Below the pieces are notes generated by a model. That model made no database searches, was not told where the DNA came from, and saw only the letters and a list, made by a program, of their open reading frames with translations. Shown piece by piece: positions 38,792 through 58,574 of a stretch of 64,000 bases of DNA (its first letter is position 1; each line of letters starts with the position of its first letter). Made by a program: the position numbers and the translations under genes. Origin of the DNA: Metabacillus endolithicus (lineage in GTDB: Bacteria > Bacillota > Bacilli > Bacillales > Bacillaceae); assembly GCF_023078335.1 (NCBI RefSeq), contig NZ_CP095550.1, forward strand, positions 4,322,001 through 4,386,000, in the 5' to 3' direction.

Positions 38792-38837
38792 CAAAAAAAC
38801 TCTCATCGTAACATTGATGAGAGTTTTTTTGTTATTT
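38789..38837 (+). terminator. Terminator of splAB
   Basis: AACAAAAAAACTCTCATC and GATGAGAGTTTTTTTGTT form an 18-bp stem around an eight-base loop. Confidence 0.88.
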
Positions 38838-38910
38838 TTTAGCCTTCAACTTCATATTCAACTTCATATATATGGTAAAATTACTTTAATCATACATAAG
38901 GGGTGTAACT

Positions 38911-39696: not shown

Positions 39697-39756
39697 AGGA
39701 AGATAAGGAGAGGTTAGCTTCTCCTTATTTTTACTTGTAAGAAGGAGAGGAGTAAT

Positions 39757-40773: not shown

Positions 40774-40812
40774 TAAAAGGAGTCGTTACTAGTACATTAA
40801 GGAGGATGTAAG

Positions 40813-41694
40813 ATGAAACAAACAATTGGCTTTATTGGTCTTGGTGTTATGGGTAAAAGTATGGCAAAACATGTATTAGAAGCTGGATATCCATTGAAAG
40901 TTTATACTAGAACAAAGGAAAAGGCAGAGGAACTACTATCTTTAGGAGCTGAATGGAAAAGTACGGTTGCAGAGCTTTCGAATGAGTCTGATATTATTAT
41001 TACAATGATTGGCTATCCGCAAGATGTTGAGGATGTTTATTTAGATGAAGCAGGTATTATTTCATCTTCAAGACCAGGTACATACGTTATCGACATGACT
41101 ACTTCTCAGCCCTCCTTGGCAAAGAGAATTTATGAACAAGCGAAACAAAAAAATATTTACGCACTAGATGCACCAGTGTCTGGGGGAGATATCGGTGCAC
41201 GTGAAGCTCGATTAGCGATTATGGTTGGTGGAGATAGAGAGGCTTTTGATTATTGTTACCCGTTGTTTGAAAAAATGGGACAAAATATTGTGTACCAAGG
41301 AGAAGCTGGTTCTGGACAACATACGAAAATGTGCAATCAAATTGCGATTGCATCGGGTATGATAGGTGTTTGTGAAGCCATTTCTTATGCACAAAAATCA
41401 GGGTTAGACCCGTCTAATGTGCTTAAAAGTATTACAACTGGGGCGGCAGGAAGTTGGTCGTTAAGTAATCTTGCTCCACGTATGTTAGAGGGAGATTATG
41501 AACCAGGTTTTTTTGTAAAGCATTTTATTAAAGATATGGGAATTGCATTAGATGAATCAAACGAAATGGATCTTTTCACACCAGGATTAAAGCTTGCACA
41601 TGAGCTTTATGAGAAACTCGCTGAAGAGGGGAATGAGAATAAAGGGACACAGGCTTTAGTTAAGCTGTGGGATAAAGCTGAAGTTAATAACTAA
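40813..41694 (+). CDS. ykwC: NAD(P)-dependent 3-hydroxyisobutyrate dehydrogenase family protein YkwC
   Basis: The 293-residue beta-hydroxyacid dehydrogenase has the N-terminal Rossmann motif GFIGLGVMGKSMA and the substrate-binding DAPVSGGDIGAREARLAIMVGG. The catalytic Lys is in GSGQHTKMCNQ. It oxidises a small beta-hydroxyacid; the physiological substrate of YkwC is not certain. RBS AAGGAGG. In synteny just before pbpH. Confidence 0.88.
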   Translation: MKQTIGFIGLGVMGKSMAKHVLEAGYPLKVYTRTKEKAEELLSLGAEWKSTVAELSNESDIIITMIGYPQDVEDVYLDEAGIISSSRPGTYVIDMTTSQPSLAKRIYEQAKQKNIYALDAPVSGGDIGAREARLAIMVGGDREAFDYCYPLFEKMGQNIVYQGEAGSGQHTKMCNQIAIASGMIGVCEAISYAQKSGLDPSNVLKSITTGAAGSWSLSNLAPRMLEGDYEPGFFVKHFIKDMGIALDESNEMDLFTPGLKLAHELYEKLAEEGNENKGTQALVKLWDKAEVNN

Positions 41695-41946
41695 AAATAT
41701 TGTAGTTATTTGAAACTTTTTCTTTAAATATACGTCAATTAAAGTGATGGAAAGGCAATGTGAAACTATTCATGTTGTCTTTTCTTTTTAACGACATTGT
41801 ATGCTTCCCATTACTTCATTTTTCTTCACATGAATGTCATAAAGCAAAGCTACCTCTTCATTGATGATAATGGTAAAATAAAGGGTAGCCTAAAAAAATA
41901 AAAAGTTATCTTGAAATAGATATAAATTGATAGGAGGAAAGCGACT

Positions 41947-44031: not shown

Positions 44032-44048
44032 ACTAACACATTAGACAT

Positions 44049-44078
44049 CAGTCTGTCATTGAACATGGCAGGCTGTTT
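44049..44078 (+). terminator. Probable terminator of pbpH
   Basis: CAGTCTGTCAT pairs with ATGGCAGGCTG (two G-U pairs) around TGAAC, followed by TTTTG. Confidence 0.6.
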
Positions 44079-44165
44079 TGTATTTTTAAAACAATAATAT
44101 GGAATCACACATAAATCCCTTCTCTTTTCACAAAATAACATTGAAAACGAAAGGGAGTGAACAAC

Positions 44166-44342
44166 TTGGCAAAAAGAACAAAGAAAAATGATCCGCAGCA
44201 AAAAAACAAAAAAGGTTTTGATTCAAGTGTAATCGATTCTGAATTCAGTCATGAAGTAGGAAGTACTGACACAAATAAGATACACAAAGATAAAGCGAAG
44301 AAAGAAAAAGCTTCTAAAAACAATGGTGAATATAAAGGATAA
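44166..44342 (+). CDS. 58-residue basic hypothetical protein
   Basis: TTG 44166 lies about nine bases after AAAGGGAG and gives a very hydrophilic Lys-rich protein (MAKRTKKNDPQQKNKKGFD, with SEFSHEVGS in the middle). The in-frame GTG at 44157 is too close to the ribosome-binding site. Likely disordered. It may be a small spore or stress protein, but no family is recognised. Confidence 0.55.
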   Translation: MAKRTKKNDPQQKNKKGFDSSVIDSEFSHEVGSTDTNKIHKDKAKKEKASKNNGEYKG

Positions 44343-44369
44343 AAACTTGGTGCTTAGCCAAGTTTTTTC
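44342..44369 (+). terminator. Terminator of the 58-residue gene
   Basis: AAAACTTGG and CCAAGTTTT pair around a seven-base loop and continue into TTCT. Confidence 0.75.
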
Positions 44370-44415
44370 TTATATTTCATAATCATTATTAGTAAGCAAA
44401 TTTTTTAAGATTATG

Positions 44416-44473
44416 TTGAATATTTTATTAGTTTCATTATATGATAGAGATAGAAACATACCGACCGGTTAGT
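44416..44473 (+). promoter_or_regulatory. Promoter and TetR-type operator 1 of the acyl-CoA cluster
   Basis: TTGAAT (44416-44421), an 18-bp spacer and TATGAT (44440-44445) form the promoter. Just past the start point lies ACATACCGACCGGTTAGT (44456-44473), an imperfect dyad (AC..ACCG..CGGT..GT). A near-identical copy lies at 48926-48943, ahead of the second half of the cluster. Confidence 0.7.
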
Positions 44474-44499
44474 TGGTGTGGGAGAAGGAGTGAGATTGG

Positions 44500-45708
44500 T
44501 TGAATTTTTCTTATTCAGAGAAGGTAATATCACTTCAAGAGAAACTACATACATTTATGAAAGAAAATATTTATCCTAATGAATATTTGTACGAACAACA
44601 GTTAGGTGAACAACAATCAAGATGGACAACAATTCCTCCTATAATGGAAGAACTCAAGGAGAAAGCAAAGGCAGAAGGTTTATGGAATCTATTTCTACCA
44701 GATAGTGAGTATGGGGCAGGTCTTACGAATATTGAATATGCTCCGTTGTGTGAAATTATGGGGAGGTCACTAATTGCTCCGGAGGTTTTCAACTGCAATG
44801 CTCCTGACACAGGCAATATGGAAGTGCTAGTTAGGTATGGAACAGAAGAGCAGAAGAAACAATGGCTTAGGCCATTATTAGATGGAAAAATTCGTTCTTG
44901 CTTTTCTATGACAGAGCCTGATGTAGCTTCAGCTGATGCGACAAATATTTGTGCAACGATTGAAAAAGACGGGGATGAGTATGTAATCAATGGTCGTAAA
45001 TGGTGGTCCTCAGGTGCAGGAGATCCAAGATGCAAAATTGCTATCGTTATGGGAAAAAATGATCCAGATGCTTCAAAGCATGAACAGCAATCTATGATCC
45101 TTGTACCACTAGATACTCCAGGAGTAAAGATTGAGCGGGTTCTTCCTGTTTTTGGATATGATCATGCACCACATGGTCATGCTGAAATTTCTTTTGAGTC
45201 AGTTCGTGTCCCAGCATCAAATATGATTCTAGGAGAGGGAAAGGGCTTTGCTATTGCACAGGGAAGATTAGGTCCTGGAAGAATACATCATTGTATGCGT
45301 TTAATTGGAGCAGCAGAAAGAGCGCTTGAACTTTTATGTAAGCGCGTACAAAACAGGGGAGCTTTTGGAAGAAGCCTTTCACAGCAAGGAGTAATTAGAG
45401 AGTGGATTGCTGACTCTAGAATTGAAATTGAACAAGCAAGGTTACTAACCCTCAAAGCAGCATATATGATGGATACAGTTGGGAATAAACAAGCTAAAGC
45501 AGAAATTGCCATGATTAAGGTTGTCGCCCCTTCTATGGCACTAAAGGTGCTAGATCGTGCCATTCAGGCTTTTGGAGGAGCTGGTGTGAGTGAAGATTTT
45601 CCATTAGCAGCTCAATGGGCAAATGCAAGAACACTAAGAATAGCTGATGGTCCAGATGAAGTTCATCGCGCACAAATAGGAAAGCTTGAATTGAAAAAAT
45701 ATCAGTAG
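44500..45708 (+). CDS. Acyl-CoA dehydrogenase, ACAD10/ACAD11 (LvaC) type
   Basis: This 402-residue FAD-dependent flavoprotein has the usual N-terminal helical domain, FAD segments ([27 protein letters not shown]) and C-terminal helices. It ends with [19 protein letters not shown]. The ADGPDEVH phrase is typical of the ACAD10/ACAD11 and LvaC group, in contrast to the EGTxE phrase of ordinary enzymes (present in the second dehydrogenase at 52142). In that group the enzyme removes phosphate from a 4-phosphoacyl-CoA. TTG 44500 follows GGAGAAGGAG. First gene after operator 1. Confidence 0.85.
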
Positions 45709-45726
45709 ACAGTAAGTAAGGAGGGA

Positions 45727-46506
45727 ATGAATTTGCATATTAAGGATTTATTTGATTTATCAGGTAAAACTGCTGTTATTACAGGTGGTGGAAGAGGACT
45801 CGGAGAACAAATTGCAGAGGGATTTGCAGAAGCTGGAGCTAATATTGTTTTATGTTCACGAAAAGAAGAGGCATGTGTTGAAGTTGCAAATCGTTTAGCC
45901 AAAAATGGCGTTCAAGCACTTGGTCTTCGGTGTGATATTACTAAAAAAGAAGATATTACCTATGTTGTTAATGAAACAATGAAACGATTCGGACAAATAG
46001 ATATTCTCGTTAATAATAGTGGAGCAACATGGGGAGCTCCTGCCGTAGAGATGCCACTAGAGGCATGGCAGAAAGTAATTGATGTAAATGTGACCGGAAC
46101 ATTTTTAATGAGCCAAGCGGTTGGTAAAGAGATGATTAAACAAAAAAGTGGAAAAATCATAAATATTTCATCTGTTGCCGGCTTAGGGGGAACAGATCCC
46201 AATTTAATGGACACAATCGGGTATAACACAAGTAAAGGAGCTGTTATTACTCTTACAAAAGATTTAGCCGCTAAATGGGGACAGTACAATATTAATGTAA
46301 ATGCTATTGCTCCAGGATTTTTTCCAACAAAAATGTCTAAGGTGATCATTGAGCATGGTAAAGATCATTTCCTTTCAGGAACACCTTTGAAGCGATTTGG
46401 TTCTGATCAAGATTTAAAAGGGGTAGCGGTGTTTTTAGCCTCAAGAGCATCTGACTTTATAACAGGTGATGTACTTGTTGTCGATGGTGGAACACATGTG
46501 TTATAA
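45727..46506 (+). CDS. SDR family oxidoreductase
   Basis: This 259-residue classical SDR has ITGGGRGLGEQ (cofactor loop), NNSG, the catalytic Ser in INISSVAG and the Tyr-Lys pair in GYNTSKGAV. It is 18 bases downstream of the dehydrogenase, so the two are probably co-transcribed. By analogy with LvaD it could interconvert a 4-oxoacyl-CoA and a 4-hydroxyacyl-CoA. The substrate is an inference from context. RBS AAGGAGGG. Confidence 0.85.
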   Translation: MNLHIKDLFDLSGKTAVITGGGRGLGEQIAEGFAEAGANIVLCSRKEEACVEVANRLAKNGVQALGLRCDITKKEDITYVVNETMKRFGQIDILVNNSGATWGAPAVEMPLEAWQKVIDVNVTGTFLMSQAVGKEMIKQKSGKIINISSVAGLGGTDPNLMDTIGYNTSKGAVITLTKDLAAKWGQYNINVNAIAPGFFPTKMSKVIIEHGKDHFLSGTPLKRFGSDQDLKGVAVFLASRASDFITGDVLVVDGGTHVL

Positions 46507-46552
46507 AGATAGCTTTATCGCTTTCTATCATTATTCTTTAGGAGGTATGTAA

Positions 46553-48165
46553 ATGGAAAACAATGAAAAGTGGTTTGCAAAGTACACTGATTCAATGTCT
46601 AATAATGTGGATATTCCTCATATTTCTCTACCTGAAATGCTTCAAAATACCATTAATAAATACGGAAATCATGAGGCAATTTCTTTCTATGGTAAGAAAT
46701 TTACGTATCATGAGGTTGCAAATATGGTTTTTGCGTTTACATCAGCACTTCAACAGTCAGGCGTGCAAAAAGGTGATAGAGTTGCGATTATGCTGCCCAA
46801 CTGTCCACAGTATGTTGTCTCCTATTACGGTGCCTTAAATGCTGGTGGGATTGTGACTCAGCTCAATCCTATGCTTGTTGAAAGAGAGCTAGAGTACATT
46901 TTAAATGATGCTGGTGCTGAAACAATTGTTGTTTTTGATAGTATTTACCCGAGAGTAAAGTCTATTCAGTCAAAAACACAGTTGAAAAATATCATTACTG
47001 TTAGTCTTCAACCTTCTGGAAAAATTCAGGAAGAGGATGACACATTTGAGAGCTTTCTAGCTAAACAGAACGGTCAGGTTTTACCAGTTGATATTGAGCC
47101 GGAACACGATATCGCGGTTTTACAATATACGGGAGGAACGACTGGACGTTCAAAAGGGCTATGCTGACTCATAGAAATGTTGTGGCAAATGCTGTGCAAT
47201 CTTATGAATTTTTTAAAGAAGAAATTATTATGGGACAAGAAAAATGTTTGACTGTCATTCCATTATTTCATGTTTTCGGAATGTCTAGCTGCATGAATCT
47301 TACCATCTTGTGTGGAAACTGCTTAATCATGCTCCCGAGATTTGATTTAGAGGAAGTGCTACAAACAATTAAGAAGGAACAGCCTACAGTATTTCCAGGC
47401 GTACCAACGATGTATGTAGCAATTACTAACCATCCAAAAGCTGAGGAATATGGAATTGATTCAATTAAAACGTGCAACAGTGGAAGTGCTCCAATGCCGG
47501 TTGAGTTGTTGAATGAATTTGAAAGAAAAACTGGTGCCAAAATTTTAGAAGGCTATGGGCTTTCCGAGGCTTCACCCACTACCCATTGTAACCCGCCATT
47601 TGCAGAAAGAAAGGCTGGTACTGTTGGGTTAGGGTTGCCTAACACTGCATATAAAATAGTGGATGTAGCAACAGGTAAACAGGAAGTACCAATTGGAGAG
47701 CTGGGAGAACTGATTATTAGTGGGCCACAGGTGATGAAAGGCTACTGGAATATGCCTGAGGAAACAGCTGTTACACTTAGAGATGGCTGGTTGTTTACAG
47801 GTGATATTGCAAGAATGGATGAAGAAGGCTATGTTTCAATTGTGGATCGAAAAAAAGACCTAATTATTGCGAGCGGTTACAATGTCTATCCGAGAGATAT
47901 TGAAGAAGTTCTCTATGAACATCCTAGCGTTCAAGAAGCAGTTGTCATTGGTATACCTGATGAGTATCGAGGGGAAACGGTAAAAGCATTTATTGTCTTA
48001 AAATCAGGGAAAACAGCAACAGAAGAGGAAATGATTGAATACAGCCGTAAACATTTGGCTACTTATAAAGTTCCGAGGTTTATTGAATTTCGGAAGGAAT
48101 TACCTAAAACAAATGTCGGAAAGATTTTAAGACGTGCTTTGAGGGAAGAAGTATTAAAACAATAA
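46553..48165 (+). pseudogene. Long-chain-type fatty acid-CoA ligase (AMP-binding), single frameshift
   Basis: The adenylate-forming enzyme has the P-loop YTGGTTGRSKG, the GYGLSEASP motif, the TGDIARMDEEGYV hinge and the catalytic Lys in KTNVGKILRR near the C-terminus. The first frame ends just after SKG at 47167. The next resumes with AMLTHRNVVANAVQSYEF. One extra G in the GGG at 47156-47158 gives a continuous protein of about 537 residues. It would activate the cluster's carboxylic acid substrate (compare LvaE). RBS AGGAGG. Confidence 0.85.
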
Positions 48166-48309
48166 AGAATTCAATCTATTTTACTGATAACTGAAAGGAA
48201 AAAATACTTGAATTTAACCATAGTTAAAACTGATGATAGCTCTAAACAAAGACGTCTTAGCCTATGGTATAATCTGAAAAAAGTAGAATAGATTGAGAGG
48301 ATATGAAAA

Positions 48310-48873
48310 ATGAAAGAGAAAATAAGAGAGCAAAGTATTCAACTATTTGCAACAAAAGGGTTTAAAGAAACATCCATCCAAGATATTGTAGATGCTCTCA
48401 ATGTCACTAAAGGAACTTTTTATTATTACTTCACTTCTAAGGAACAGCTGTTAATGGATATACATTTACAGTATATTGATGATTTGTTAGAAAAACAGGA
48501 AAACATCATTAAAAACGAATCCATGAATTGTAAGGATAAGTTGTATAACATCGTTTATATGCTCATTCATGATATTGAAAAAGAAGGATTAAGTGCAAAG
48601 GTGTTCTTTCGTGAAATGCGTAACCTTAATGAAGATCATCTTACATTAATAGTCCCGAAAAGAGATCAATTTCGAATCAATATCCAAAAATTATTAGATG
48701 AAGGTATTGAACAAAACGAAATTCGCTCTGATTTACCGACAGATATTGTAACACTTAGTATATTAGGAATGACTAACTGGAGCTATTTTTGGTTTGATCC
48801 TCAAGGTAGGGCATCAGATAAGGACGTTTCAGAGGTGTTTATTAAAGTGTTATTGGAAGGATTGGCTGTATAG
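48310..48873 (+). CDS. TetR/AcrR family transcriptional regulator
   Basis: The 187-residue regulator has an N-terminal helix-turn-helix (residues 4-50, with GFKETSIQDIVDALNVTKGTFYYYFTSKEQLL) and a C-terminal ligand-binding domain. It lies between the two parts of the cluster, each preceded by the same operator-like sequence, so it is the probable repressor, relieved by an acyl-CoA. RBS GAGAGGA. Confidence 0.88.
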   Translation: MKEKIREQSIQLFATKGFKETSIQDIVDALNVTKGTFYYYFTSKEQLLMDIHLQYIDDLLEKQENIIKNESMNCKDKLYNIVYMLIHDIEKEGLSAKVFFREMRNLNEDHLTLIVPKRDQFRINIQKLLDEGIEQNEIRSDLPTDIVTLSILGMTNWSYFWFDPQGRASDKDVSEVFIKVLLEGLAV

Positions 48874-48925
48874 TTGCCTGATGATGCAAGATTAACTTGC
48901 ATCATCAGAAAAAAATTTACAAAAA

Positions 48926-48943
48926 ACATACCGACTGGTTAGT
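48926..48943 (+). promoter_or_regulatory. TetR-type operator 2 of the acyl-CoA cluster
   Basis: ACATACCGACTGGTTAGT differs from operator 1 (44456-44473) at one of 18 positions. It lies 22 bases before the start codon of the 3-hydroxyacyl-CoA dehydrogenase gene. Confidence 0.7.
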
Positions 48944-48964
48944 AAGTAAAGGGAGGATTTATTC

Positions 48965-49849
48965 ATGTTGAAAAATCAAGTTAGATCAATTTGTGTAGTT
49001 GGGGCAGGACAAATGGGTCATCAAATTGCCATGTTAAGTGCATTAGCTGGATTTGAAACAGTTATTCAAGATGTAAATGTAGATGCTCTTCAAAAAGCAG
49101 AATCAACTCTACATACAATAATGGACAAATGGGTAGCAAAAGGGAAAATCAGTATTGAAACCAAGGAGCAGGCTTTCCAAAGATTAATATTTTCAACTGA
49201 TTTACTGGATTCTGTGCAAGATGCAGATTTTATTATAGAAGCAATTGTTGAAAAATTAGATGCAAAGCAAGAATTGTTCCGTAAGCTTGATGAATATGCA
49301 AAGCCAGAAGCAATCCTAGCTTCAAATAGTTCAACAATTGTAAATTCACTCTTAGCTGATGTAACGAATCGTCCTGATAAGGTTGTGAATATGCATTTCT
49401 TTTTTCCACCCCTTGTGATGGATTGTGTAGAGGTTGTGAAAAGTGAAGAAACATCTGAGCTTACAGCTCATATGACGATGTTTGTTTGTGAAAAAATGAA
49501 TCGAACGGCCGTTCTTTTACAAAAGGAGATTTCAGGATTTATTGCAAATCGAATTTTAGGGGCATTACAGCGTGAAGCCGTTTATCTGTATGAAAACGGT
49601 TATGCAGATTTTAAAGATATTGATCTTATTTGTAAAAAGGCTCTAAGTCATCCAATAGGACCATTTGAATTAATGGATTTGTCGGGAATCGATGTTGGTT
49701 ACTTTGTTATGCAACAAAGATTTTCAGAAACTGGTGATCCGGCGGATAGACCTGCTGCATGTATTGAGGAAAAAGTAAAGCAAGGCCATTTAGGAAGAAA
49801 AACCGGTAAGGGTTGGTATGAGTATAAGAAAGAAGAGGTCAGAGGCTAA
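48965..49849 (+). CDS. 3-hydroxyacyl-CoA dehydrogenase
   Basis: The 294-residue enzyme has the NAD-binding motif VVGAGQMGHQIA, the catalytic His segment NMHFFFPPLVMDCVEVV and the helical C-terminal dimerisation domain with FIANRIL. It oxidises 3-hydroxyacyl-CoA to the 3-oxo form (Hbd/PaaH type). RBS GGGAGG. First gene of the second operon; it overlaps the thioesterase gene by one base. Confidence 0.9.
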   Translation: MLKNQVRSICVVGAGQMGHQIAMLSALAGFETVIQDVNVDALQKAESTLHTIMDKWVAKGKISIETKEQAFQRLIFSTDLLDSVQDADFIIEAIVEKLDAKQELFRKLDEYAKPEAILASNSSTIVNSLLADVTNRPDKVVNMHFFFPPLVMDCVEVVKSEETSELTAHMTMFVCEKMNRTAVLLQKEISGFIANRILGALQREAVYLYENGYADFKDIDLICKKALSHPIGPFELMDLSGIDVGYFVMQQRFSETGDPADRPAACIEEKVKQGHLGRKTGKGWYEYKKEEVRG

Positions 49850-50253
49850 TGAAGCATGAAACATTAGTAAAAGTTCGTTTTTGTGAAACTGATGCCTTAG
49901 GACATGTAAACAACACCAGCTTTTTTATTTATTTGGAGGAAGCACGGGTTTTATTTTTTGAAAGCATCGGTTATTCGATGAAAATGGATGGCTGGGAATT
50001 TATTCTTGCTTCTACAAAATGTGATTTCATTGGGCAAGCTTTTTTTAATCAAAAACTAAAGATCGAAACAGAGGTTAGCAAAATTGGCAATAAAAGCTTT
50101 CATTTAGCTCACTCCATTATTGATGATGTAACAGGTGAATTGGTTGCTAGAGGTGAGGCAATCATTGTTTATTTTAATTTTGAAATGCAAAAAAGTATGC
50201 CAATTCCGAATGAGTTAAAAGAAGCATTACAAAGTCATCATACCCTTATTTAA
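49849..50253 (+). CDS. Acyl-CoA thioesterase, 4HBT hotdog family
   Basis: This 134-residue hotdog-fold protein has the active-site loop FCETDALGHVNNTSFFIYLEE with the catalytic Asp. It releases free CoA or prevents CoA trapping. Its coupling to the upstream stop (TAATG) supports a shared role with the dehydrogenase. Confidence 0.85.
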   Translation: MKHETLVKVRFCETDALGHVNNTSFFIYLEEARVLFFESIGYSMKMDGWEFILASTKCDFIGQAFFNQKLKIETEVSKIGNKSFHLAHSIIDDVTGELVARGEAIIVYFNFEMQKSMPIPNELKEALQSHHTLI

Positions 50254-50299
50254 ATTAGTAACGATCTAGTTTTATATCCTATTAAAAGGAGTGAAAATC

Positions 50300-51364
50300 A
50301 TGAGTGATATAATTCCAGTCAGAAGTGGAGAGGAGCTTAATGATAAAACAGTTAAAGAATTTTTAATACATCATTTTCCGCAGCTTTCTGAAGAAGATCC
50401 CCTAATCATTAATCAATTTGGAACAGGTGCTTCAAATTTAACGTATGAGCTTAAGCTAGGAAACTGGGAAGGAGTGTTAAGAAGGCCACCACTTGGTCCT
50501 GTTGCACCTAAAGCTCATGATATGAAACGAGAATTTAAAATTTTGAGTGCCCTTCACCCTATGTTTCCACCTGCACCGAAACCGTATCTGTTTTCAGAAG
50601 ACGAAGAGGTGGTCGGAAGTCCATTTCTTATTATGGAAAGAAGGCATGGAATATTGTTAAATACTGATTTTCCTCCCGATACTCCGTCTTCACATGAGCT
50701 TGGAGAAAAGTTAAGCGAAATGATGATTGATACTCTTGTTCAGCTTCACCAAGTTAATTATAAAGGAACAGTTTTAGAAGAACTGAGTAACCCTGATGGC
50801 TTTTTGGAACGTCAGGTTTATGGTTGGATAAAGCGATATCACAGTGCAAAAACAGATGATATTAAAATAATAGATGAATTAACAAATTGGCTAGTAAAAA
50901 ATATTCCTTCTTCACAAGAAGCCACGATCATACATTATGACTTTAAATTCAACAATGCATTATTCTCTCATGATTTTAGTCAACTAACTGGATTGTTTGA
51001 TTGGGAAATGACAACTGTTGGTGATCCATTAGCAGATGTTGGTGCAGCGTTAAGCTATTGGTGTCAGAACGATGATCCGGACCTATTGAAATATGGACTT
51101 GGTAAGCCACCAATAACAGTTAAAGAAGGATTTTATACTAGAAATCAATTTATCGAACGATATGCTGCAAAAAGTGGCCGTGATTTGTCACAAATCCATT
51201 ACTATATGACATTTGCTTATTTTAAGCTAGCGGTCATTTGTCAGCAGATTTATTATCGTTATCATAATGGGCAAACAAATGATAAACGGTTTAAAGACTT
51301 TCATCTATATGTGAAAACACTTATTGAGCATGCTGTATCTGTAAGTCGAGAAAAGGCAAGGTGA
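50300..51364 (+). CDS. Aminoglycoside phosphotransferase-like kinase (ACAD10/11 kinase-domain, LvaA type)
   Basis: This 354-residue protein kinase-like enzyme has the ATP loop and Arg-rich segment TYELKLGNWEGVLRRPPLGP followed by KAHDMKREFKIL, then the catalytic IIHYDFKFNN and the metal-binding FDWEMTTVGDPLADVG. These phrases are characteristic of the kinase domain of ACAD10/ACAD11 and LvaA, which phosphorylates the 4-hydroxyl of a 4-hydroxyacyl-CoA. ATG 50300 has AAAGGAG upstream. Together with the ACAD at 44500 it provides, as two genes, what is one fused protein in animals. Confidence 0.85.
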   Translation: MSDIIPVRSGEELNDKTVKEFLIHHFPQLSEEDPLIINQFGTGASNLTYELKLGNWEGVLRRPPLGPVAPKAHDMKREFKILSALHPMFPPAPKPYLFSEDEEVVGSPFLIMERRHGILLNTDFPPDTPSSHELGEKLSEMMIDTLVQLHQVNYKGTVLEELSNPDGFLERQVYGWIKRYHSAKTDDIKIIDELTNWLVKNIPSSQEATIIHYDFKFNNALFSHDFSQLTGLFDWEMTTVGDPLADVGAALSYWCQNDDPDLLKYGLGKPPITVKEGFYTRNQFIERYAAKSGRDLSQIHYYMTFAYFKLAVICQQIYYRYHNGQTNDKRFKDFHLYVKTLIEHAVSVSREKAR

Positions 51365-51413
51365 ACTCAGGTATGGGCGTTAGGAGATCTCCTTCAAGAA
51401 AGGGGTGTAAAGG

Positions 51414-52145
51414 GTGACAAAGGTACATGTGATCATGAAAAAAGAAGAAATTATTGAGGAGAAAATGGAGGGGAATATTGCAATTGTTATCGATGTCTTA
51501 CTGGCAACCTCAACAATCACCTGTGCACTTGTGGATGGGGCGAAAGCGGTTATTCCTGTTCATAATGCAGAAGAAGCTCGTGTAGCCTCAAATCTTATCA
51601 GAGCAGAAAATCACATACTAGTTGGAGAATATGAGGGGAAAACAATTGAGGGTTTTTATGATCCAATGCCAACCATTTTAAAAGACAGCATTCAAGGCAA
51701 GCATATGATCTTATCTACAACAAATGGAACAGTAGCAATTAATAAATCAAAAAAAGCAAATAAAATTTATATTTGTTCTCTATTAAATGGAAAAGCAGTT
51801 GCAAATACAATTACTCATTTTCATAAAGATGATTCTATTATTATTGTGTGTTCTGGATCTTCAGATCAGTTTTGTTTAGAAGATTTTTATGGAGCGGGGC
51901 ATCTTATCTATCATTTACAAGAAAAGATGCATTTACAGCTAACAGATTCGGCTAAGGCAGCTCGACTTTTTTATGAAAGCAATAAATCTGTTGCTGAAAC
52001 GATTCTTCTTTCATCAAGGGTAGGAGAAATGCTTGAAAAATATGGATTCATTGATGAAGTGAAAGTTGTTAGCCAAAAAGATTGCTTTGAAATTGTTCCA
52101 TTTTTTGACGGAGAAAAAATTATAGCAGGGGGAGAGTGTGTATGA
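51414..52145 (+). CDS. ComB (2-phosphosulfolactate phosphatase) family protein
   Basis: The 243-residue protein shows the ComB pattern: IAIVIDVLLATSTITCALVD, VGEYEGKTIEGFYDP and LSTTNGTVAI. Known members are magnesium-dependent phosphatases that form sulfolactate for coenzyme M, or in Bacillus relatives sulfolactate of spores. Here it sits between the kinase and a dehydrogenase in a catabolic operon, so another phosphorylated acid is a plausible substrate. GTG 51414 follows AAGGGGTG. It overlaps the next gene by four bases. Confidence 0.82.
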   Translation: MTKVHVIMKKEEIIEEKMEGNIAIVIDVLLATSTITCALVDGAKAVIPVHNAEEARVASNLIRAENHILVGEYEGKTIEGFYDPMPTILKDSIQGKHMILSTTNGTVAINKSKKANKIYICSLLNGKAVANTITHFHKDDSIIIVCSGSSDQFCLEDFYGAGHLIYHLQEKMHLQLTDSAKAARLFYESNKSVAETILLSSRVGEMLEKYGFIDEVKVVSQKDCFEIVPFFDGEKIIAGGECV

Positions 52146-53890
52146 CTTTACTAGCTAATAAAGGCGGTAGCTTTTTATATGACTATGATTTACCTTTAAA
52201 TCTATTTACTCCTGAAGATGTAACAGATGAACAAAAAATGATTGAAAAAACGGCAAAACAGTTTGTAGAAAAAGATGTAACACCTGTTAGAGAGAGAATT
52301 GAAAATCAAGATTTTGATAAAGTAGTAGAGTTGTTAAAAAAAGCCGGTGAGCTTGGACTCCTTGCACACAGTGTACCGGAGCAGTATGGTGGGCTAGGTC
52401 TTGACAAGGTTAGTAAAGGTATTGTTGGAGAAGTTGTCGGAAGGTCTGGTGGATATGGTGTTGCCCATTCAAATCATACATGTATCGCTACTCTTCCGAT
52501 CACTTATTTTGGTACAAAGCAACAAAAAGAACGTTACTTACCTAAATTGGCTTCAGGAGAATATCTTGGTGCATATTGCTTAACGGAGCCGAATGCGGGT
52601 TCAGATGCTCTGGCGTCACAAACAACTGCAAAACTAAATGACCAAGGAACTCATTATCTGTTAAACGGTACAAAACTTTATATTACAAATGCAATATTTT
52701 CAGATACATTCATTGTATATGCGAAAGTAGATGGTGATAAATTTTCGGCCTTTATTGTTGAAAAGAACTATCCTGGAATTTCTTTAGGACCTGAGGAACA
52801 AAAGATGGGTATTAAAGGTTCCTCTACAAGAGCTGTTATTTTAGAGGATTGTCTAGTTCCTAAAGAAAATCTATTAGGAGAAATCGGGAAAGGTCATGTT
52901 ATAGCTCTAAATGTTCTAAATTTAGGGCGGTTTAACTTAGGGTCTGCGTGTGTAGGGGGTGCAAAGTATGCATTAGAACTTGCACTTTCTTATACAAAAC
53001 AGCGGATTCAATTTGGTAAATCAATTGCAGATTTCCCTGCCACAAAGGAAAAAATAGCCCTGATGTCAGCACGTATATTCGCCGCTGAGTCTATTCAATA
53101 TCGAACTGCAGGGTTGCTCGAAGAAATTCTAGGTAACATAACAGAAGATGAAGATATCACAGCTATCGGAAAGAAATTAATGGAATACGCTACAGAATGT
53201 GCCATCTGTAAAGTATATGGATCTGAAACACTTGATTCAGTCAGTGATGAGGCTCTTCAATTACACGGTGGGGCAGGCTTTATTAAGGAATATACGATCG
53301 AGCAAGTTTATCGAGATTCACGTATTAATCGAATTTTCGAAGGAACAAATGAGATTAATCGCTTGTTATTACCGACCCATTTATTTAGAAAAGCTTTAAA
53401 AGGAGAAATTCCTCTAGAAGAGATGATTCAAACAGCGATTCAAAATTTGGCCGTGAACCCAAGTCAAGATAATGGGGAGTTTTCTCAGGAAAAGGCGGCA
53501 ATAAGCGCAATGAGAAACGTTTTTTTAGCTTGTATTGGAGCTGTTTATGAGCAATTCGGCGAAAAACTTTTTGATGAACAAGAAACACTAATGAAATTAT
53601 CAAATATAGCAATAGAGCTTTATGCAGCTGAATCGACTCTTGCTAGGTCAATAAAGCGGGATGATCGATTAAAAAGGTTACTAGCAAGAACAGTCTTGGA
53701 ACAGTCACTGCTTTCTGTTGAAGTCATGTCAAGACAACTTGTGAATGGCGTGGTAAACGGTAAAAAAAGAAGCTTATTTATACAAATGATAACGAGTCAC
53801 CTTCAATCAGTTGACGTTACGTCAACGGTAGAAGAAAAGCGTGAAATTGCACGGGCTCAATTTGAAGCTGAACGATTTGTAACGAAATGA
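52142..53890 (+). CDS. Acyl-CoA dehydrogenase, long FadE-like type
   Basis: This 582-residue dehydrogenase has YCLTEPNAGSDALAS, the FAD-binding core, the conventional IFEGTNEINRLLLP segment and an extra C-terminal helical extension as in B. subtilis FadE. It introduces the first double bond in beta-oxidation. ATG 52142 follows GGGGGAG and overlaps the comB-like stop (ATGA). Confidence 0.88.
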   Translation: MTLLANKGGSFLYDYDLPLNLFTPEDVTDEQKMIEKTAKQFVEKDVTPVRERIENQDFDKVVELLKKAGELGLLAHSVPEQYGGLGLDKVSKGIVGEVVGRSGGYGVAHSNHTCIATLPITYFGTKQQKERYLPKLASGEYLGAYCLTEPNAGSDALASQTTAKLNDQGTHYLLNGTKLYITNAIFSDTFIVYAKVDGDKFSAFIVEKNYPGISLGPEEQKMGIKGSSTRAVILEDCLVPKENLLGEIGKGHVIALNVLNLGRFNLGSACVGGAKYALELALSYTKQRIQFGKSIADFPATKEKIALMSARIFAAESIQYRTAGLLEEILGNITEDEDITAIGKKLMEYATECAICKVYGSETLDSVSDEALQLHGGAGFIKEYTIEQVYRDSRINRIFEGTNEINRLLLPTHLFRKALKGEIPLEEMIQTAIQNLAVNPSQDNGEFSQEKAAISAMRNVFLACIGAVYEQFGEKLFDEQETLMKLSNIAIELYAAESTLARSIKRDDRLKRLLARTVLEQSLLSVEVMSRQLVNGVVNGKKRSLFIQMITSHLQSVDVTSTVEEKREIARAQFEAERFVTK

Positions 53891-53900
53891 GGTGCTGTTA

Positions 53901-54665
53901 ATGAGGTTTTTAAATAAACTTGCTGTTATTACCGGAGCTGGGAGTGGAATTGGAGAAGCAACAGCGATACGCTTAGCTAAGGAAGGAGCAACAGTTGTTT
54001 TAGTAGGAAGAACAAAAGAAAAGCTTGAAAAAGTTGCTAGAATTATTAATGAATCTAAAGCTTGTGAAAAAGCTATTCCATACCCGGCCGATGTGACTTC
54101 TGAGGATAGTATAAAGAAACTTGCTATTTTTTTAGAAAGCGAATATCCATCACTTGATATTGTTGTAAACAACGCTGGAGGCTCATCAAAATCTACCATT
54201 CTTGAAACTACGGAAGAGCAGTGGGACACAGTACAGGCTGTTAATTTGAAAAGTATCTTTTTAGTTTCGAAACATCTCGGGAAACTAATGAAAGAACAAA
54301 ACTTAACAGATTACCGTTCAATCGTAAATGTTGCTTCATTATCGGGGTATAAGGCTGGTGCTCAAATTCCACATTATAGCTCGGCAAAAGCTGGGGTTAT
54401 TAATTTTTCAAGAGCCTTAGCATTAGAGCTTGCTCCTTATAAAATTCGTGTTAATTCTGTTTCACCTGGATTTGTTGAAACACCGTTAACTGAGAAGGGG
54501 TTGGAAAATGAGGCTTTTGTAAAAGCGATTAAACGTAGTACTGCGCTTGAACGCGTTGGGCAACCTGATGAAGTAGCAAATGTAATTGCTTTTGTTGCAT
54601 CTAATGAGGCTTCATATATGACAGGATCAGATGTGTTGGTTGATGGAGGCTGGCTTATTAAATAA
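53901..54665 (+). CDS. SDR family oxidoreductase
   Basis: This 254-residue classical SDR has TGAGSGIGEA, NNAGG, the Ser in VNVASLSG and the Tyr-Lys pair in HYSSAKAGV. ATG 53901 has GAGGTG six bases upstream and is preferred to GTG 53892. Ten bases separate it from the dehydrogenase gene, so it is in the same operon. It probably acts on a hydroxyacyl or oxoacyl-CoA. Confidence 0.85.
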   Translation: MRFLNKLAVITGAGSGIGEATAIRLAKEGATVVLVGRTKEKLEKVARIINESKACEKAIPYPADVTSEDSIKKLAIFLESEYPSLDIVVNNAGGSSKSTILETTEEQWDTVQAVNLKSIFLVSKHLGKLMKEQNLTDYRSIVNVASLSGYKAGAQIPHYSSAKAGVINFSRALALELAPYKIRVNSVSPGFVETPLTEKGLENEAFVKAIKRSTALERVGQPDEVANVIAFVASNEASYMTGSDVLVDGGWLIK

Positions 54666-54717
54666 CGGTATGCCAATTCAAAGGTTTTTACTAGTTTATT
54701 AAAAAGGAGTCAATCAA

Positions 54718-55485
54718 ATGAGTGATTTATTGATAGAAAGAGAAGGGGCAGTGTTAACTCTTTGTCTTAATAGACCTGAAAATTTGAATGCTTTTAGTGC
54801 AGAAATGATTAGAATGTTAACAAAAACATTTCAAGACGCTCAACTTGATGAGGAAGTACGTGTGATTGTATTGAAGGGATCGGGGCGATCTTTCTCTGCC
54901 GGTGGAGATGTAAAAACAATGGGAACATCAACTGGTTCAGAGGTTTATGAACATATTGGTCAATTAAATGAATGCATTAAAGCAATGACAGAACTTGAAA
55001 AACCAATTATTGCGGCTGTACATGGTTTTGCAGCAGGAGCAGCTTTTAATTTGGCATTAGCTTGTGACATGATTTATGCATCAGAAGAAAGTAAATTTGT
55101 CATGAGCTTTTCACAAGTAGGATTGATATCTGATGGTGGTGGATTACACTTTCTTCCAAAAATAATTGGACCTTATCGGGCAAAAGAGCTCTTCTTTTCA
55201 GCAAAACCAATAACTGCTCAGCAGGCTTACCAATACGGGATTGTTAACGAGCTTATTCCGTTAGATGAATTATCAAGCCGTGTGGCTGCAATTGCTAATG
55301 AACTTTCACAAGGTGCTGTAAGAGCATACGGACTCATGAAAAAAATTATTCATTCTGCAGGTTCATTAGAAAATGTGTTGGAGATAGAAAGAATTACTCA
55401 AACGTATATGATTCAAACGGAAGATCATAAAGAAGGTGTTAAAGCATTTAAAGAAAAACGGAAACCACAATTCAAAGGGAAGTAG
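54718..55485 (+). CDS. Enoyl-CoA hydratase/isomerase family protein
   Basis: The 255-residue crotonase-fold protein has the oxyanion hole segments FSAGGDVKTMG and AAVHGFAAGAAFNLALACD. The residues of the second loop (VGLISDGGGLHFLP) resemble the PaaG/isomerase-like group, where Asp replaces the hydratase Glu, so isomerase activity is possible. RBS AAAAGGAG. Confidence 0.85.
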   Translation: MSDLLIEREGAVLTLCLNRPENLNAFSAEMIRMLTKTFQDAQLDEEVRVIVLKGSGRSFSAGGDVKTMGTSTGSEVYEHIGQLNECIKAMTELEKPIIAAVHGFAAGAAFNLALACDMIYASEESKFVMSFSQVGLISDGGGLHFLPKIIGPYRAKELFFSAKPITAQQAYQYGIVNELIPLDELSSRVAAIANELSQGAVRAYGLMKKIIHSAGSLENVLEIERITQTYMIQTEDHKEGVKAFKEKRKPQFKGK

Positions 55486-55497
55486 GAGGATATTAAG

Positions 55498-56481
55498 ATG
55501 AAAGCTATTCAATTTGAACAATATGGCGGACCTGAGGTATTAAAATATATAGATTTAGATTATCCAAAACCAAGAGATTTTGAGGTTGTTATAAAAATTG
55601 AAGCAATAGGTGTAAACTATGCAGACACAGCAAGAAGAGAGGGACAGTATGTAGTCGATACACCTCTTCCTTATGTACCAGGCTCAGAAGTCGCAGGTAC
55701 AGTGGTCGAGGTGGGCAAGGATGTTAAAGGAATTTCGGTTGGTAGCCGAGTTGTTACATTACTAAGCTCACGAAAAGCTACGGGTTATGCTGAATACACA
55801 GTTGCGGATGGAAGAGCACTTATTCCAGTGCCGGACAATGTGGAGTTTAGTACAGCTGTAGCCTTACCGTTACAAGGGCTGAGTGCTTATCATATATTAA
55901 AAACAATGGGAAGACTAGAGAAAGGAGAGACGGTATTAATTCATGCAGCAGCAGGTGGGGTTGGAACATTAGCTGTACAACTTGCTAAATTGTTTGGAGC
56001 TGGGAAAGTTATTGCTACGGCAAGTACAGATGAAAAACTGGCATTAGCAAAAGAACTTGGAGCTGATGTTCTAATCAATTATACAAAAGAGGGATGGGAA
56101 AAAGAGGTATTAACCGCAACAAATGGAGTTGGAGCGGATGTTGCATTAGAGATGGCAGGTGGAGATGTTTTCCGAAAAACACTGGATTGTTTAGCACCTT
56201 TTGGTCGGTTAGTTATTTATGGGGTTGCCAGTGGAGAACAAGCTAGATTATATCCTTCATCTTTAATGGCAGAAAATAAATCGGTCATTGGCTTCTTTTT
56301 ACCGGGAATTATGAAAAAACAAGAGTTGTATAGTAGTAGCTTAACAGAACTATTAACATATGTTAACGATGGAACACTCTTACTTAAAATAGGTGGAGTT
56401 TTCCCTTTAGAAAAAGCAGCAGATGTACATCGTCTACTTCAAAGTAGGAAAACTCAGGGGAAGTTGGTATTAGTTCCATAA
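55498..56481 (+). CDS. Quinone oxidoreductase family (zinc-independent MDR)
   Basis: This 327-residue medium-chain dehydrogenase/reductase has the nucleotide-binding motif HAAAGGVGTLAVQLAK and no structural zinc cysteines. Typical members reduce quinones or enoyl compounds with NADPH. It is the last gene of the operon, 12 bases behind the hydratase-like gene, and a terminator follows. It may reduce an alpha,beta-unsaturated by-product. Confidence 0.85.
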   Translation: MKAIQFEQYGGPEVLKYIDLDYPKPRDFEVVIKIEAIGVNYADTARREGQYVVDTPLPYVPGSEVAGTVVEVGKDVKGISVGSRVVTLLSSRKATGYAEYTVADGRALIPVPDNVEFSTAVALPLQGLSAYHILKTMGRLEKGETVLIHAAAGGVGTLAVQLAKLFGAGKVIATASTDEKLALAKELGADVLINYTKEGWEKEVLTATNGVGADVALEMAGGDVFRKTLDCLAPFGRLVIYGVASGEQARLYPSSLMAENKSVIGFFLPGIMKKQELYSSSLTELLTYVNDGTLLLKIGGVFPLEKAADVHRLLQSRKTQGKLVLVP

Positions 56482-56546
56482 TCTAAAGGATATTTTTTGC
56501 TACAAAACGTGGTAAACTTCAGCAGTATGCATTTAATTTTTATCTA

Positions 56547-56575
56547 CAAAAAAGTCGGAAATTCCGGCTTTTTTA
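56547..56575 (+). terminator. Terminator of the acyl-CoA cluster
   Basis: AAAAAGTCGGAA and TTCCGGCTTTTTT pair with one G-T wobble, followed by TTAA. Confidence 0.85.
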
Positions 56576-56774
56576 ACTTTATTAGTCATAATTCACACCC
56601 TATATCATATATTAATTTTGTCGAGGTTATTTTTCATATATTGACAAACTTTTATTACTATGTACACTTATTTTAAAGGTATAAACATTTATATATGTAA
56701 ATTCAATAGGAATATGTTCGTTATATAAAACTAATGTACTAGTATAGAGGTCATGAAAAAGGGGAAGGGAAGCA

Positions 56775-58574
56775 ATGAATAGTGAAATAACAAATCAAGA
56801 GGAAGCTATACAAACACTGGAACTTTATGCTGTTGTATCCTCAAATGGGAGATTTCAATACATTTCTTCTAATTCTTTTGAATTAATAGGCTACACAAGT
56901 ACGGATCTAATTGGACGATATATAAAAGATTTTATTCATAATGAAGATTTATTTTTAATAGAGAGTTATTTTTATAACGAACATCATTTATATCCATGTT
57001 CCATACGATTTTTGATGCAAAATGGTAGATATATTTGGCTAGAATCAAATGCTGATTTTATCCGAAGTAACATCCAAAAAGAAGGACATGATATTATTCT
57101 CAAGATGAAAGCATTAACACCTCATTCGATTAATGATACGGCTACCGTTGAAGATCAATCGAATGATGTAATAAATGAACATGATGAATGGGCTATATTA
57201 CAGGATTTACCTACACCAGTCTTTATTTCTAGGAAAGGTAAGTTACTCTTTGTAAACAAGGCATTCCAAGAGTTGTTAGGTGCTAGATCTTCGGATCAAT
57301 TAATAGGTAAGCATACGTTTGATTTTATCGATGAATCTTTTCATTCGGTTATTAAAAATAGAGAGTCGCGGTTACATAAAGGAGAAAGAGTAGGTATTAT
57401 TGAGGAAACATGGCGCAGGATTGATGGGCGTGAAATAAATGTAGAGATTATGGCATCTTTAACAAATGTTGATGGGGGACAAGCAGAAATTGTCATATTA
57501 AATGATATCTCATCCCGAAGGAATTTCCAAAAAATTCTTCAAAAGAGTAGGGAACGGTATCAGCGTTTAATTGATAATTCGATTGATACAATTGCAGTTA
57601 TTCATAAGGATCAATTTGTTTTCATGAACGAGTCTGGTATTAAGCTTTTTGATGCGGAGTGCTACCCTGACTTGTTAGGGCGGAATATATATGATTACCT
57701 ACATCCTAATGACCATCAAACAATGAAAAATACATTGAAAAACATACAAGATGGGGTTGCTGATGTTCAAGTAACAAACCAATCTTGGTTAATTTCCAAT
57801 GAAAAAAAGGTTTTTACAGAAATGGTTTGTATTCCAACTACATATTTTGGTGAGCAAGCTGTTCAAGTTATCCTTCGTGATATTTCGTATAGGAAAAAAA
57901 CAGAGGAGCTCATGTTGCGTTCTGAAAAACTATCTATAGCAGGCCAATTAGCTGCTGGAATTGCCCATGAAATACGAAATCCATTGACTGCGATTAAGGG
58001 ATTTTTACAAATTATGCATCCCGATTTAGAACATCACCGTCAATATTTGAATATTATCTTTTCTGAGCTGAATCGAATTGAGATGATATTAAGTGAACTT
58101 CTTGTTCTTGCAAAACCACAGGAAACAAAATTTAAAAAAACGAATTTAATTACCTTATTAAACGATGTAGCGATGCTACTTGAAACACAAGGTAATATGA
58201 AAAATGTTGCTATTGTTCAAAATCATGACAATCAATCTTTATCAATTAATTGTGATGAAAATCAATTAAAGCAATTGTTTATAAATTTATATAAAAATGC
58301 TATTGATGCGATGCCTAAAGGCGGAAAAGTATCTGTATTAACAAAAAAATCAAATCATAATGTTCAAATTATTGTTAAAGATGATGGAGAGGGAATTCCT
58401 CCAAGCGTTTTAAAAAGAATAGGTGAGCCGTTTCTTACAACAAAAGAAAAAGGAAACGGATTAGGTTTAATGATAAGTTATAAAATCGTTGAAAATCATA
58501 ATGGAAGTATGTCGGTCGATAGTCAACAAGGAATAGGGAGTACTTTCACCATTACATTACCTTTTATAGAATAA
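56775..58574 (+). CDS. kinA: Sporulation-type sensor histidine kinase KinA
   Basis: This 599-residue soluble kinase has three PAS domains (about 10-115, 140-255, 265-375), a dimerisation HisKA domain with phospho-His398 in AAGIAHEIRNPLTAIKGF, and an HATPase_c domain with N, G1 (VKDDGEGIP) and G2 (GNGLGLMI) boxes. No membrane span is present. The length and three-PAS layout match B. subtilis KinA (606 residues), which feeds the Spo0F/Spo0B/Spo0A phosphorelay. The pbpH-kinA-patA synteny agrees, though the acyl-CoA cluster separates pbpH here. RBS GGGGAAGGGAAG. Confidence 0.87.
   Translation: MNSEITNQEEAIQTLELYAVVSSNGRFQYISSNSFELIGYTSTDLIGRYIKDFIHNEDLFLIESYFYNEHHLYPCSIRFLMQNGRYIWLESNADFIRSNIQKEGHDIILKMKALTPHSINDTATVEDQSNDVINEHDEWAILQDLPTPVFISRKGKLLFVNKAFQELLGARSSDQLIGKHTFDFIDESFHSVIKNRESRLHKGERVGIIEETWRRIDGREINVEIMASLTNVDGGQAEIVILNDISSRRNFQKILQKSRERYQRLIDNSIDTIAVIHKDQFVFMNESGIKLFDAECYPDLLGRNIYDYLHPNDHQTMKNTLKNIQDGVADVQVTNQSWLISNEKKVFTEMVCIPTTYFGEQAVQVILRDISYRKKTEELMLRSEKLSIAGQLAAGIAHEIRNPLTAIKGFLQIMHPDLEHHRQYLNIIFSELNRIEMILSELLVLAKPQETKFKKTNLITLLNDVAMLLETQGNMKNVAIVQNHDNQSLSINCDENQLKQLFINLYKNAIDAMPKGGKVSVLTKKSNHNVQIIVKDDGEGIPPSVLKRIGEPFLTTKEKGNGLGLMISYKIVENHNGSMSVDSQQGIGSTFTITLPFIE

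Follow-up and report, generated by a model that had tools for sequence, protein, structure and literature searches.

The window analyzed here is a stretch of 64,000 nucleotides from the genome of Metabacillus endolithicus (positions 4322001-4386000 of contig 1, NZ_CP095550.1; genome size 5.30 Mb, completeness 99.71), which carries a run of 12 genes on its + strand, from 44455 to about 56575. This cluster is likely a TetR-controlled regulon that feeds 4-hydroxy acids into beta-oxidation by the chemistry of the acyl-coenzyme A (acyl-CoA) dehydrogenases (ACADs) ACAD10 and ACAD11, or of LvaA and LvaC, with a co-opted phosphatase; for its core alone, i.e. the kinase and the phosphate-eliminating dehydrogenase, we regard the assignment as very probable. 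It builds on the families of these two proteins and their diagnostic residues, on their co-occurrence, on operators shared between loci, and on a distinct, kinase-tied subfamily of ComB-like proteins, which mostly occurs without ComA. In our view, these point to a real ACAD11-type pathway in Bacillota, with a probable regulon of its own and a new phosphatase component.

The role of ACAD10 and ACAD11 in the metabolism of 4-hydroxy fatty acids has been shown only recently, and the function of the HAD domain of ACAD10, which resembles a phosphatase, is unsettled. The two-gene version of this bacterium, whose dehydrogenase shares 60% identity with human ACAD11, would be a practical system for tests, and its co-regulated phosphatase, of a family not expected here, makes it directly testable how cells avoid a build-up of phospho-acyl-CoA. 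Furthermore, the cluster suggests what may be the function of a group of ComB proteins which, going by family models, would be annotated as 2-phosphosulfolactate phosphatase, and a probable operator of the regulon can now be named.

The kinase and the ACAD11-like dehydrogenase

The dehydrogenase encoded by the first gene of the cluster matches the ACAD11 chains 2wbi (492 bits), 8v3u and 8v3v with 489-492 bits and 4hr3 with 500 bits; the best conventional ACAD reaches only 149 bits. In a model of mouse ACAD11, described in the available text of Rashan et al. (PMC12440821), R626, H634 and R637 grip the 4-phosphate, and non-conservative changes of these residues were the most disruptive; in mouse ACAD10/11, mutation of the catalytic aspartate (D753) led to loss of the dehydrogenase-domain activity. 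The window protein has all four diagnostic residues, in the form of an HCMR motif, an arginine upstream of it (R626) and an aspartate (D753) in its terminal ADGPDEVH. They are found in all 85 sequences, the window counted, that score above 500 bits against the dehydrogenase profile. The 19 remoter homologs (300-500 bits) retain the two arginines, the histidine and the aspartate in varying surroundings, and the 52 lower-scoring rows mostly belong to FadE-type or other conventional ACADs, whose motifs differ, and include one or two fragments of the family.

In a 45-row tree, built without P. putida LvaC and without ACAD10, this family is split from eight conventional rows with a support of 100/99. 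Human ACAD11 falls into a 19-row clade with the window protein (98/95), outside of which lie five LvaC-like proteins from Pseudomonadota and Streptomyces; its closest relative among all rows is the window dehydrogenase, with 60% identity over 381 columns. Judged by residues and tree, the protein is of the ACAD10/11/LvaC type, as an earlier note, made from the letters of this DNA and a list of its open reading frames (ORFs), had proposed.

The kinase adopts the fold of aminoglycoside phosphotransferases (APH). Its nearest solved relative by sequence is PDB entry 9o56, known here by sequence and title ('Aminoglycoside phosphotransferase') alone, which it matches over residues 5-348 with 475 bits, and it matches the kinase domain of ACAD11 with 161 bits (E = 3e-46). 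When mapped by hand on the alignment, the catalytic aspartate, the asparagine and the CoA-contacting arginine of ACAD11 (D220, N225 and R176) correspond to D214, N219 and R171 of the window kinase and are invariant in 11 of 11 aligned kinases, while R86 of ACAD11 is not mappable with certainty. The ACAD10/11-like motifs that the earlier note had noticed in this protein are borne out. In a kinase tree of 47 rows, the Bacillota sequences group together (97/100), and the ACAD11 kinase sits on a very long branch (3.06) that is joined to another long branch, so that its exact place is unsure. The same note had held that a position of the two proteins outside the ACAD10/11-LvaA/C clades would refute its proposal; the dehydrogenase lies inside, together with ACAD11, and the place of the kinase beside the long-branched ACAD11 domain is the part that stays unsure.

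The two genes also occur together. Among 60 related genomes, the kinase (E <1e-90) is found in 32, and the same 32 carry the ACAD11-like gene, with at least 75% identity in 30 of them and about 43% in two. In the other 28 genomes, the APH-fold matches are weak (best 2.8e-6), and on the dehydrogenase side there are conventional ACADs or no match at all. Fisher's test gives 1e-17 for this co-occurrence, a value that ignores kinship and uses limits set after the hits were seen. Both proteins come from broad superfamilies, and the run could in principle be an ordinary beta-oxidation cluster with a conventional ACAD and an unrelated aminoglycoside-type phosphotransferase; yet the kinase scores 26 bits on the APH(3') model, whose cut-off is 205, and the ACAD11-type residues, the tree and the co-occurrence contradict this explanation, which is hardly credible.

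Mammalian ACAD11 and ACAD10 (available text of PMC12440821 and PMC11342911) likewise combine an APH-fold kinase with an atypical ACAD that has the equivalents of R626, H634, R637 and D753, and it is because of these residues and the phylogeny that the chemistry established for ACAD10/11 is transferred to the putative enzymes of the window. Unlike in mammals, the latter are encoded by two separate genes instead of forming one polypeptide, have no HAD domain, and share their regulon with a ComB-type phosphatase and a beta-oxidation set.

Some variants of these loci deserve mention. Two stretches (L160, 8001-11845, and L114) contain a second kinase (25% identical), a 150-151-aa protein without a Pfam family and an HCMR-bearing ACAD of the distant group, in a gene order resembling lvaA-lvaB-lvaC; a plasmid search and a PDB search with this second kinase gave weak, unspecific matches only. 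In Cytobacillus spongiae (L063), a version of the cluster is plasmid-borne (690 kb), with thiamine genes and sulfate assimilation genes as its neighbors, and the 25-kb stretch examined there holds no ComB.

A ComB-family phosphatase beside the kinase

The gene directly downstream of the kinase is absent from the earlier note. Its product matches PF04029 with 213 bits (cut-off 26.4) and the ComB structure 1vr0 with E = 1e-34, and falls under the cut-off in all eight NCBIfam models listed, for instance with 131 bits on TIGR00298 (cut-off 175). We followed its occurrence over 79 Bacillota kinase loci, 36 of them taken from the related genomes, a plasmid and the window, and the other 43 being named loci; the two sets may share species and are not independent. 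ComB lies directly 3' of the kinase in 38 of them, a relic in genome G038 counted, and somewhere in the examined stretch in 46. It stands two or three genes upstream in L120, L163, L164, L166 and L172, after an extra ACAD-like gene in L165 and L167, and before the ACAD11-like gene in L108. Both main Bacillota branches of the kinase tree, the second of them weakly supported, include loci with ComB.

Across the 60 genomes, the kinase-linked ComB subfamily, assigned by score to a profile built from kinase-linked copies, is present in 28 of the 32 kinase genomes and in none of the 28 others; the 28 positives include G038, where a 73-aa relic stands beside the kinase. One kinase genome (G055) has another ComB type only. 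In another (G052), ComB has moved outside the cluster and has kept the operator described below 11 bp before its start.

ComA (PF02679) makes phosphosulfolactate. No PF02679 match was found in the window's genome (G000), and ComA is missing in 24 of the 28 genomes with a kinase-linked ComB, the window's included; it is present in G022, G040, G042 and G056, the first two of which have a second, ordinary ComB next to it. By comparison, ComA accompanies other ComB types in 10 of 12 genomes.

The subfamily is also distinct in its residues, as seen in an alignment of 47 kinase-linked sequences (excluding the G038 relic), 10 ordinary and two intermediate ones. All 47 kinase-linked proteins have Leu, Phe or Met in place of the arginine of the DxLRATS motif (Arg30), and proline in place of the asparagine of the NSP loop (position 84). 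The arginine is present in 9 of the 10 ordinary proteins and the asparagine in 8, both occur in the two intermediate ones, and the structures 1vr0 and 2yyv have the arginine and NSP. Asp27, Glu72, TNG (103-105) and Asp157 are retained at high frequency in all types, whereas Cys146, Gly148 and Glu156 are retained in the 47 kinase-linked and the intermediate proteins and are mostly different in the ordinary type of Bacillales. With both structures, the window protein has Asp27, Glu72, TNG, Gly148 and Asp157 in common, and with 2yyv only also Cys146 and Glu156. This pattern suggests that the phosphatase core was kept and that the sulfonate/carboxylate site was altered toward a more hydrophobic substrate. 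The chances that this substrate would be the phospho-acyl-CoA, or the phospho-acid released from it, are about even.

The protein might instead serve spore sulfolactate synthesis as an ordinary 2-phosphosulfolactate phosphatase and stand here by chance. Such a role would fit the PF04029 score far above the cut-off, the joint presence of PF04029 and ComA in our control genome, B. subtilis, and the two genomes (G042, G056) that have ComA and this ComB type alone. It is difficult to reconcile with the missing ComA in the window's nearly complete genome and in most subfamily genomes, as opposed to those with other ComB types, with the loss of the conserved arginine and the NSP loop, with the linkage to an acyl-CoA kinase and the confinement of the subfamily to kinase genomes among the 60, or with an operator that was retained after relocation. 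We therefore regard it as very improbable. A third ComB type with intermediate scores (L209, L210; G013, G024) lies 2-3.5 kb from ComA in kinase-free genomes and retains the arginine and NSP.

Outside Bacillota, the neighbor of the kinase is often another one. In 46 kinase loci (nine plasmid records and 37 named contigs), a histidine phosphatase is found in the examined stretch of 24, adjacent on the same strand in 16, and 22 have none. The profile used for it was partly built from these proteins, two of which were confirmed as PF00300, and matches several genes away may be due to chance. ComB occurs in none of these 46 loci, and a histidine phosphatase in none of the 79 Bacillota loci. Annotated histidine phosphatase neighbors are found in Pseudoalteromonas, Azospirillum, Ideonella, a Rhodobacteraceae strain and Streptomyces, and kinase loci without such a neighbor in Rhodococcus DMU1, Halomarina and D. 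aetherius. A third phosphatase family as a general neighbor was rejected, albeit weakly: among 10 scanned proteins from loci without ComB or histidine phosphatase, a sample that covers the minority of such neighbors, one matches the PAP2 phosphatase superfamily (L173) and none matches HAD.

A phosphatase near the kinase is already in print. According to the available text of PMC6692424, the levulinate-induced cluster of P. citronellolis LA18T has no LvaB and a histidine phosphatase gene near the LvaA homolog, whose product was suggested to dephosphorylate 4-phosphovaleryl-CoA. The window cluster resembles it in both respects, its phosphatase being of the ComB family instead, and it is this component that appears to be new. 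In the open-access literature, among the matches listed and setting aside unopened microbiome surveys that hold both terms, with subscription papers outside the scope, we found no link between PF04029 or ComB and the 4-hydroxyacyl-CoA pathway. For ACAD10, the available text of Paquay et al. (PMC11342911) describes a HAD domain with negligible phosphatase activity, which yet restrains the kinase and limits the phospho-intermediate. The partners by lineage are ComB in Bacillota, a histidine phosphatase in Pseudomonadota, Actinomycetota, Acidobacteriota and others, and the HAD domain in animal ACAD10. We tentatively propose, with slightly less than even confidence, that a ComB-fold subfamily was recruited in Bacillota as a dedicated 4-phosphoacyl-CoA phosphatase, and that the kinase tends to travel with an unrelated phosphatase or phosphatase-like domain in each lineage; if so, keeping the phospho-intermediate low would seem to be a common requirement.

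Operators and the proposed pathway

Each half of the cluster is preceded by one copy of the pattern AACATACCGAC(C/T)GGTTAGT, located shortly before the start codon of its first gene (Table 1). With up to three mismatches, 0.02 such sites are expected by chance in the 64-kb window, and in the whole genome these two are the sole sites with fewer than three. The 40 further sites in this genome, all with three mismatches, were dismissed as additional targets and count as background, because the reversed control pattern has more (84).

The pattern recurs at the loci of relatives. In a looser form, it yields 59 matches, which are spread over 41 of the 94 stretches and include a palindromic place that counts double; for 50 of these matches, the nearest downstream gene is, by automatic call, a cluster gene (ACAD, short-chain dehydrogenase/reductase (SDR), 3-hydroxyacyl-CoA dehydrogenase, thioesterase or kinase). 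The remaining nine are the two of the window, whose genes lie outside that tabulation, the one in L220, and single matches in L088, L092, L098, L110, L154 and L157. The match in L220 is the only one among the 15 stretches that lack a kinase (L111, L116, L209-L221). In its exact form, searched for in 29 of the 32 kinase genomes (all except G037, G042 and G044), it occurs at 41 sites in 25 genomes, versus one site for the reversed pattern. By coordinates, 34 of the 41 are at the cluster. Four, in as many genomes of a single genus, precede an unlinked ACAD, as seen directly in two cases and deduced from coordinates in two; no FadE is present in the cluster stretches of these genomes. The others lie before the relocated ComB-hydratase pair of G052, before a relocated half consisting of ligase, TetR, 3-hydroxyacyl-CoA dehydrogenase, hydratase and SDR genes (G059), and before a carboxyltransferase-ligase pair (G041), with one site each. 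The TetR protein presumably binds the two operators, and the cluster is probably under its control, with a regulon of its own.

Two other features can be noted. Promoter-like sites number 33, fewer than in shuffled sequences (44.3), so that the match upstream of operator 1 carries no weight. Between the TetR gene and operator 2, at 48878-48908, lies a strong hairpin (-20.8 kcal/mol, z -7.4) that is followed by A, not T, on the + strand.

In the pathway that we propose, the CoA ligase would activate the acid to its acyl-CoA, an SDR would set, oxidize or reduce C4, and the kinase would phosphorylate the acyl-CoA at its 4-hydroxyl group. The ACAD11-like flavoenzyme would then, in an FAD-dependent manner, eliminate the phosphate to give a 2-enoyl-CoA, from which the hydratase, the 3-hydroxyacyl-CoA dehydrogenase and FadE would continue with ordinary beta-oxidation. 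The ComB-family phosphatase may act as a safety valve that keeps CoA and phosphate from being trapped, by hydrolyzing the phospho-acyl-CoA or the released phospho-acid. Where the ACAD leaves phospho-acyl-CoA unprocessed, the thioesterase could, less surely, help ComB to recover CoA and the hydroxy acid.

Several points weigh against this picture. The enzymatic activities are predicted from sequence, and the co-occurrence counts treat related genomes as independent, with score limits set post hoc. Partner genes vary among relatives, in which FadE and a second hydratase come and go, and the ligase is frameshifted (see below), so that the cluster as assembled may need another ligase. ComB is not in the examined stretch of 33 of the 79 Bacillota loci, some of which end at contig ends, and is therefore accessory; PF04029 is absent altogether from three congeneric genomes that carry the cluster (G001, G011, G014), and in G042, ComB lies with an ACAD11-like gene and not in a stretch with the kinase. 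Finally, ComA is an imperfect marker, as it accompanies the kinase-linked ComB alone in G042 and G056 and occurs without any PF04029 in G050, G051 and G054.

As to the substrate, the earlier note had inferred a phosphorylation-dependent route for 4-hydroxy or 4-oxo acids. The part concerning 4-hydroxy acids stands, but a specificity for levulinate or other 4-oxo acids is not supported. A levulinate operon proper, functionally equal to lvaABCDE of P. putida KT2440 (known here through the available text of PMC6692424, PMC11342911 and PMC12440821), would explain why a kinase, an LvaC-type dehydrogenase, an SDR and a CoA ligase are found together, and the levulinate-induced cluster of P. citronellolis shows that neither a missing LvaB nor a phosphatase beside the kinase would be at odds with it. 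However, in P. putida these genes come with LvaB, a small protein of 12 kDa, with the sigma54-type regulator LvaR (PMC6692424, available text) and with the LvaF/LvaG transporter, as far as these sources describe it. By contrast, the window has a TetR protein with two operators and no transporter among the cluster genes, and adds FadE, a hydratase and a 3-hydroxyacyl-CoA dehydrogenase, a set that would fit longer chains, FadE being hardly needed for a C5 acid. Likewise, the pieces of the ligase, scanned apart, match best to a long-chain-fatty-acid ligase model, whole-protein cut-offs not being applicable to pieces, and the ACAD groups with ACAD11 and not with the LvaC-like proteins of Pseudomonadota. 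Our comparison used ACAD11 and the LvaC-like proteins of Streptomyces and of Pseudomonadota other than P. putida, in place of P. putida LvaA and LvaC themselves. On balance, a levulinate operon is unlikely.

Rather unlikely, too, is a role of the kinase and the ACAD11-like enzyme in the metabolism of another hydroxyacyl-CoA, such as a 4-hydroxy intermediate of terpenoids or of hydroxylated or peroxidized lipids, instead of general 4-hydroxy fatty acids. A cytochrome P450 gene, a possible source of the hydroxyl group, lies directly 3' of the kinase in Planococcus beigongshangi and Planomicrobium stackebrandtii (L171, 9116-10315; L132, 9123-10310), and some of the loci or regulon members have a hydratase of the MaoC type. 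Against this, the genes common to many Bacillota loci are of ordinary straight-chain beta-oxidation types.

Layout of the cluster and the broken ligase

All genes named in the earlier note were found in place on the + strand by ORF list and domain scans (Table 1); the last gene of the run had been overlooked, as had the break in the ligase. The second dehydrogenase, with its EGTNE motif, is indeed a conventional one.

Table 1. Features of the cluster, with positions in the window
Feature	Position	Strand	Basis or remark
Operator 1, AACATACCGACCGGTTAGT	44455..44473	+	26 bp to dehydrogenase start codon
ACAD10/11/LvaC-type dehydrogenase, putatively eliminating phosphate from 4-phosphoacyl-CoA	44500..45708	+	sequence matches, residues, tree
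SDR oxidoreductase 1, candidate for an LvaD-like role (C4 oxo/hydroxy interconversion)	45727..46506	+	domain scans
Fatty acyl-CoA ligase, two frames (46553-47167 / 47161-48165)	46553..48165	+	frames and domain scans
TetR-family regulator (TetR_C_24)	48310..48873	+	domain scan
Operator 2, AACATACCGACTGGTTAGT	48925..48943	+	21 bp to 3-hydroxyacyl-CoA dehydrogenase start codon
3-Hydroxyacyl-CoA dehydrogenase	48965..49849	+	domain scans
4HBT-fold thioesterase	49849..50253	+	domain scans
APH-fold kinase, LvaA/ACAD11-kinase type, putative 4-hydroxyacyl-CoA kinase	50300..51364	+	domain scans, residues; ORF opens at 50291, ATG at 50300
ComB-family (PF04029) phosphatase, kinase-linked subfamily	51414..52145	+	PF04029 match
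Conventional acyl-CoA dehydrogenase FadE, EGTNE catalytic motif	52136..53890	+	NF058590, 783 bits (cut-off 600)
SDR oxidoreductase 2	53892..54665	+	domain scans
Enoyl-CoA hydratase/isomerase	54718..55485	+	domain scan
Zinc-type alcohol dehydrogenase/quinone oxidoreductase family	55498..56481	+	domain scan; many relatives' clusters have one too
Terminator-like hairpin 3' of last gene	56548..56574	+	consensus match only; 11 such sites vs 7.0 expected in shuffles

Much of this layout is shared. The first SDR gene directly follows the ACAD gene in many Bacillota loci and has copies of 58-60% identity in two Acidobacteriota loci (L184, L189), the TetR gene lies between the cluster halves in many relatives as well, and the thioesterase gene adjoins the kinase gene in 36 of the 79 Bacillota loci. 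Domain scans found no thiolase among the cluster genes. The absence of an LvaB-like small protein, remarked on before, holds for ORFs of at least 80 aa: no unassigned one is present on the + strand of the cluster, except one out of frame inside the ligase gene, and this is a statement on size, as an LvaB profile was not searched.

The CoA ligase of the earlier note is present, but not as one frame: a one-base frameshift near 47158 splits it in two. In relatives, all 33 orthologous frames with at least 65% identity are single (532-560 aa), and a programmed frameshift was rejected on this ground; the break may be an assembly error, or else a mutation that probably arose recently. Compared to G002 and G015, in both of which the gene is intact, no coding indel of the cluster other than this one-base gap breaks a frame. 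G015 further differs from the window by three bases at the start of the 3-hydroxyacyl-CoA dehydrogenase gene and by an extra enoyl-CoA hydratase gene (L085, 10588-11380) at the junction to the thioesterase gene (window 49849), which the window and G002 do not have.

The two parts of the ligase gene differ in their distance to G002, with 25 synonymous and 11 non-synonymous differences in 198 codons of the 5' part, and five synonymous and no non-synonymous ones in 330 codons of the 3' part. The surrounding region (38595-58496) is likewise a mosaic when compared to G002 (L086): from about 47300 to 58496 and from 38595 to 39500, the two are nearly identical (0-0.6% difference per 500 bp in the former), and from 39500 to 47000, they differ by 1-13% per 500 bp. 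This pattern suggests that DNA was exchanged recently and that a breakpoint lies within the ligase gene.

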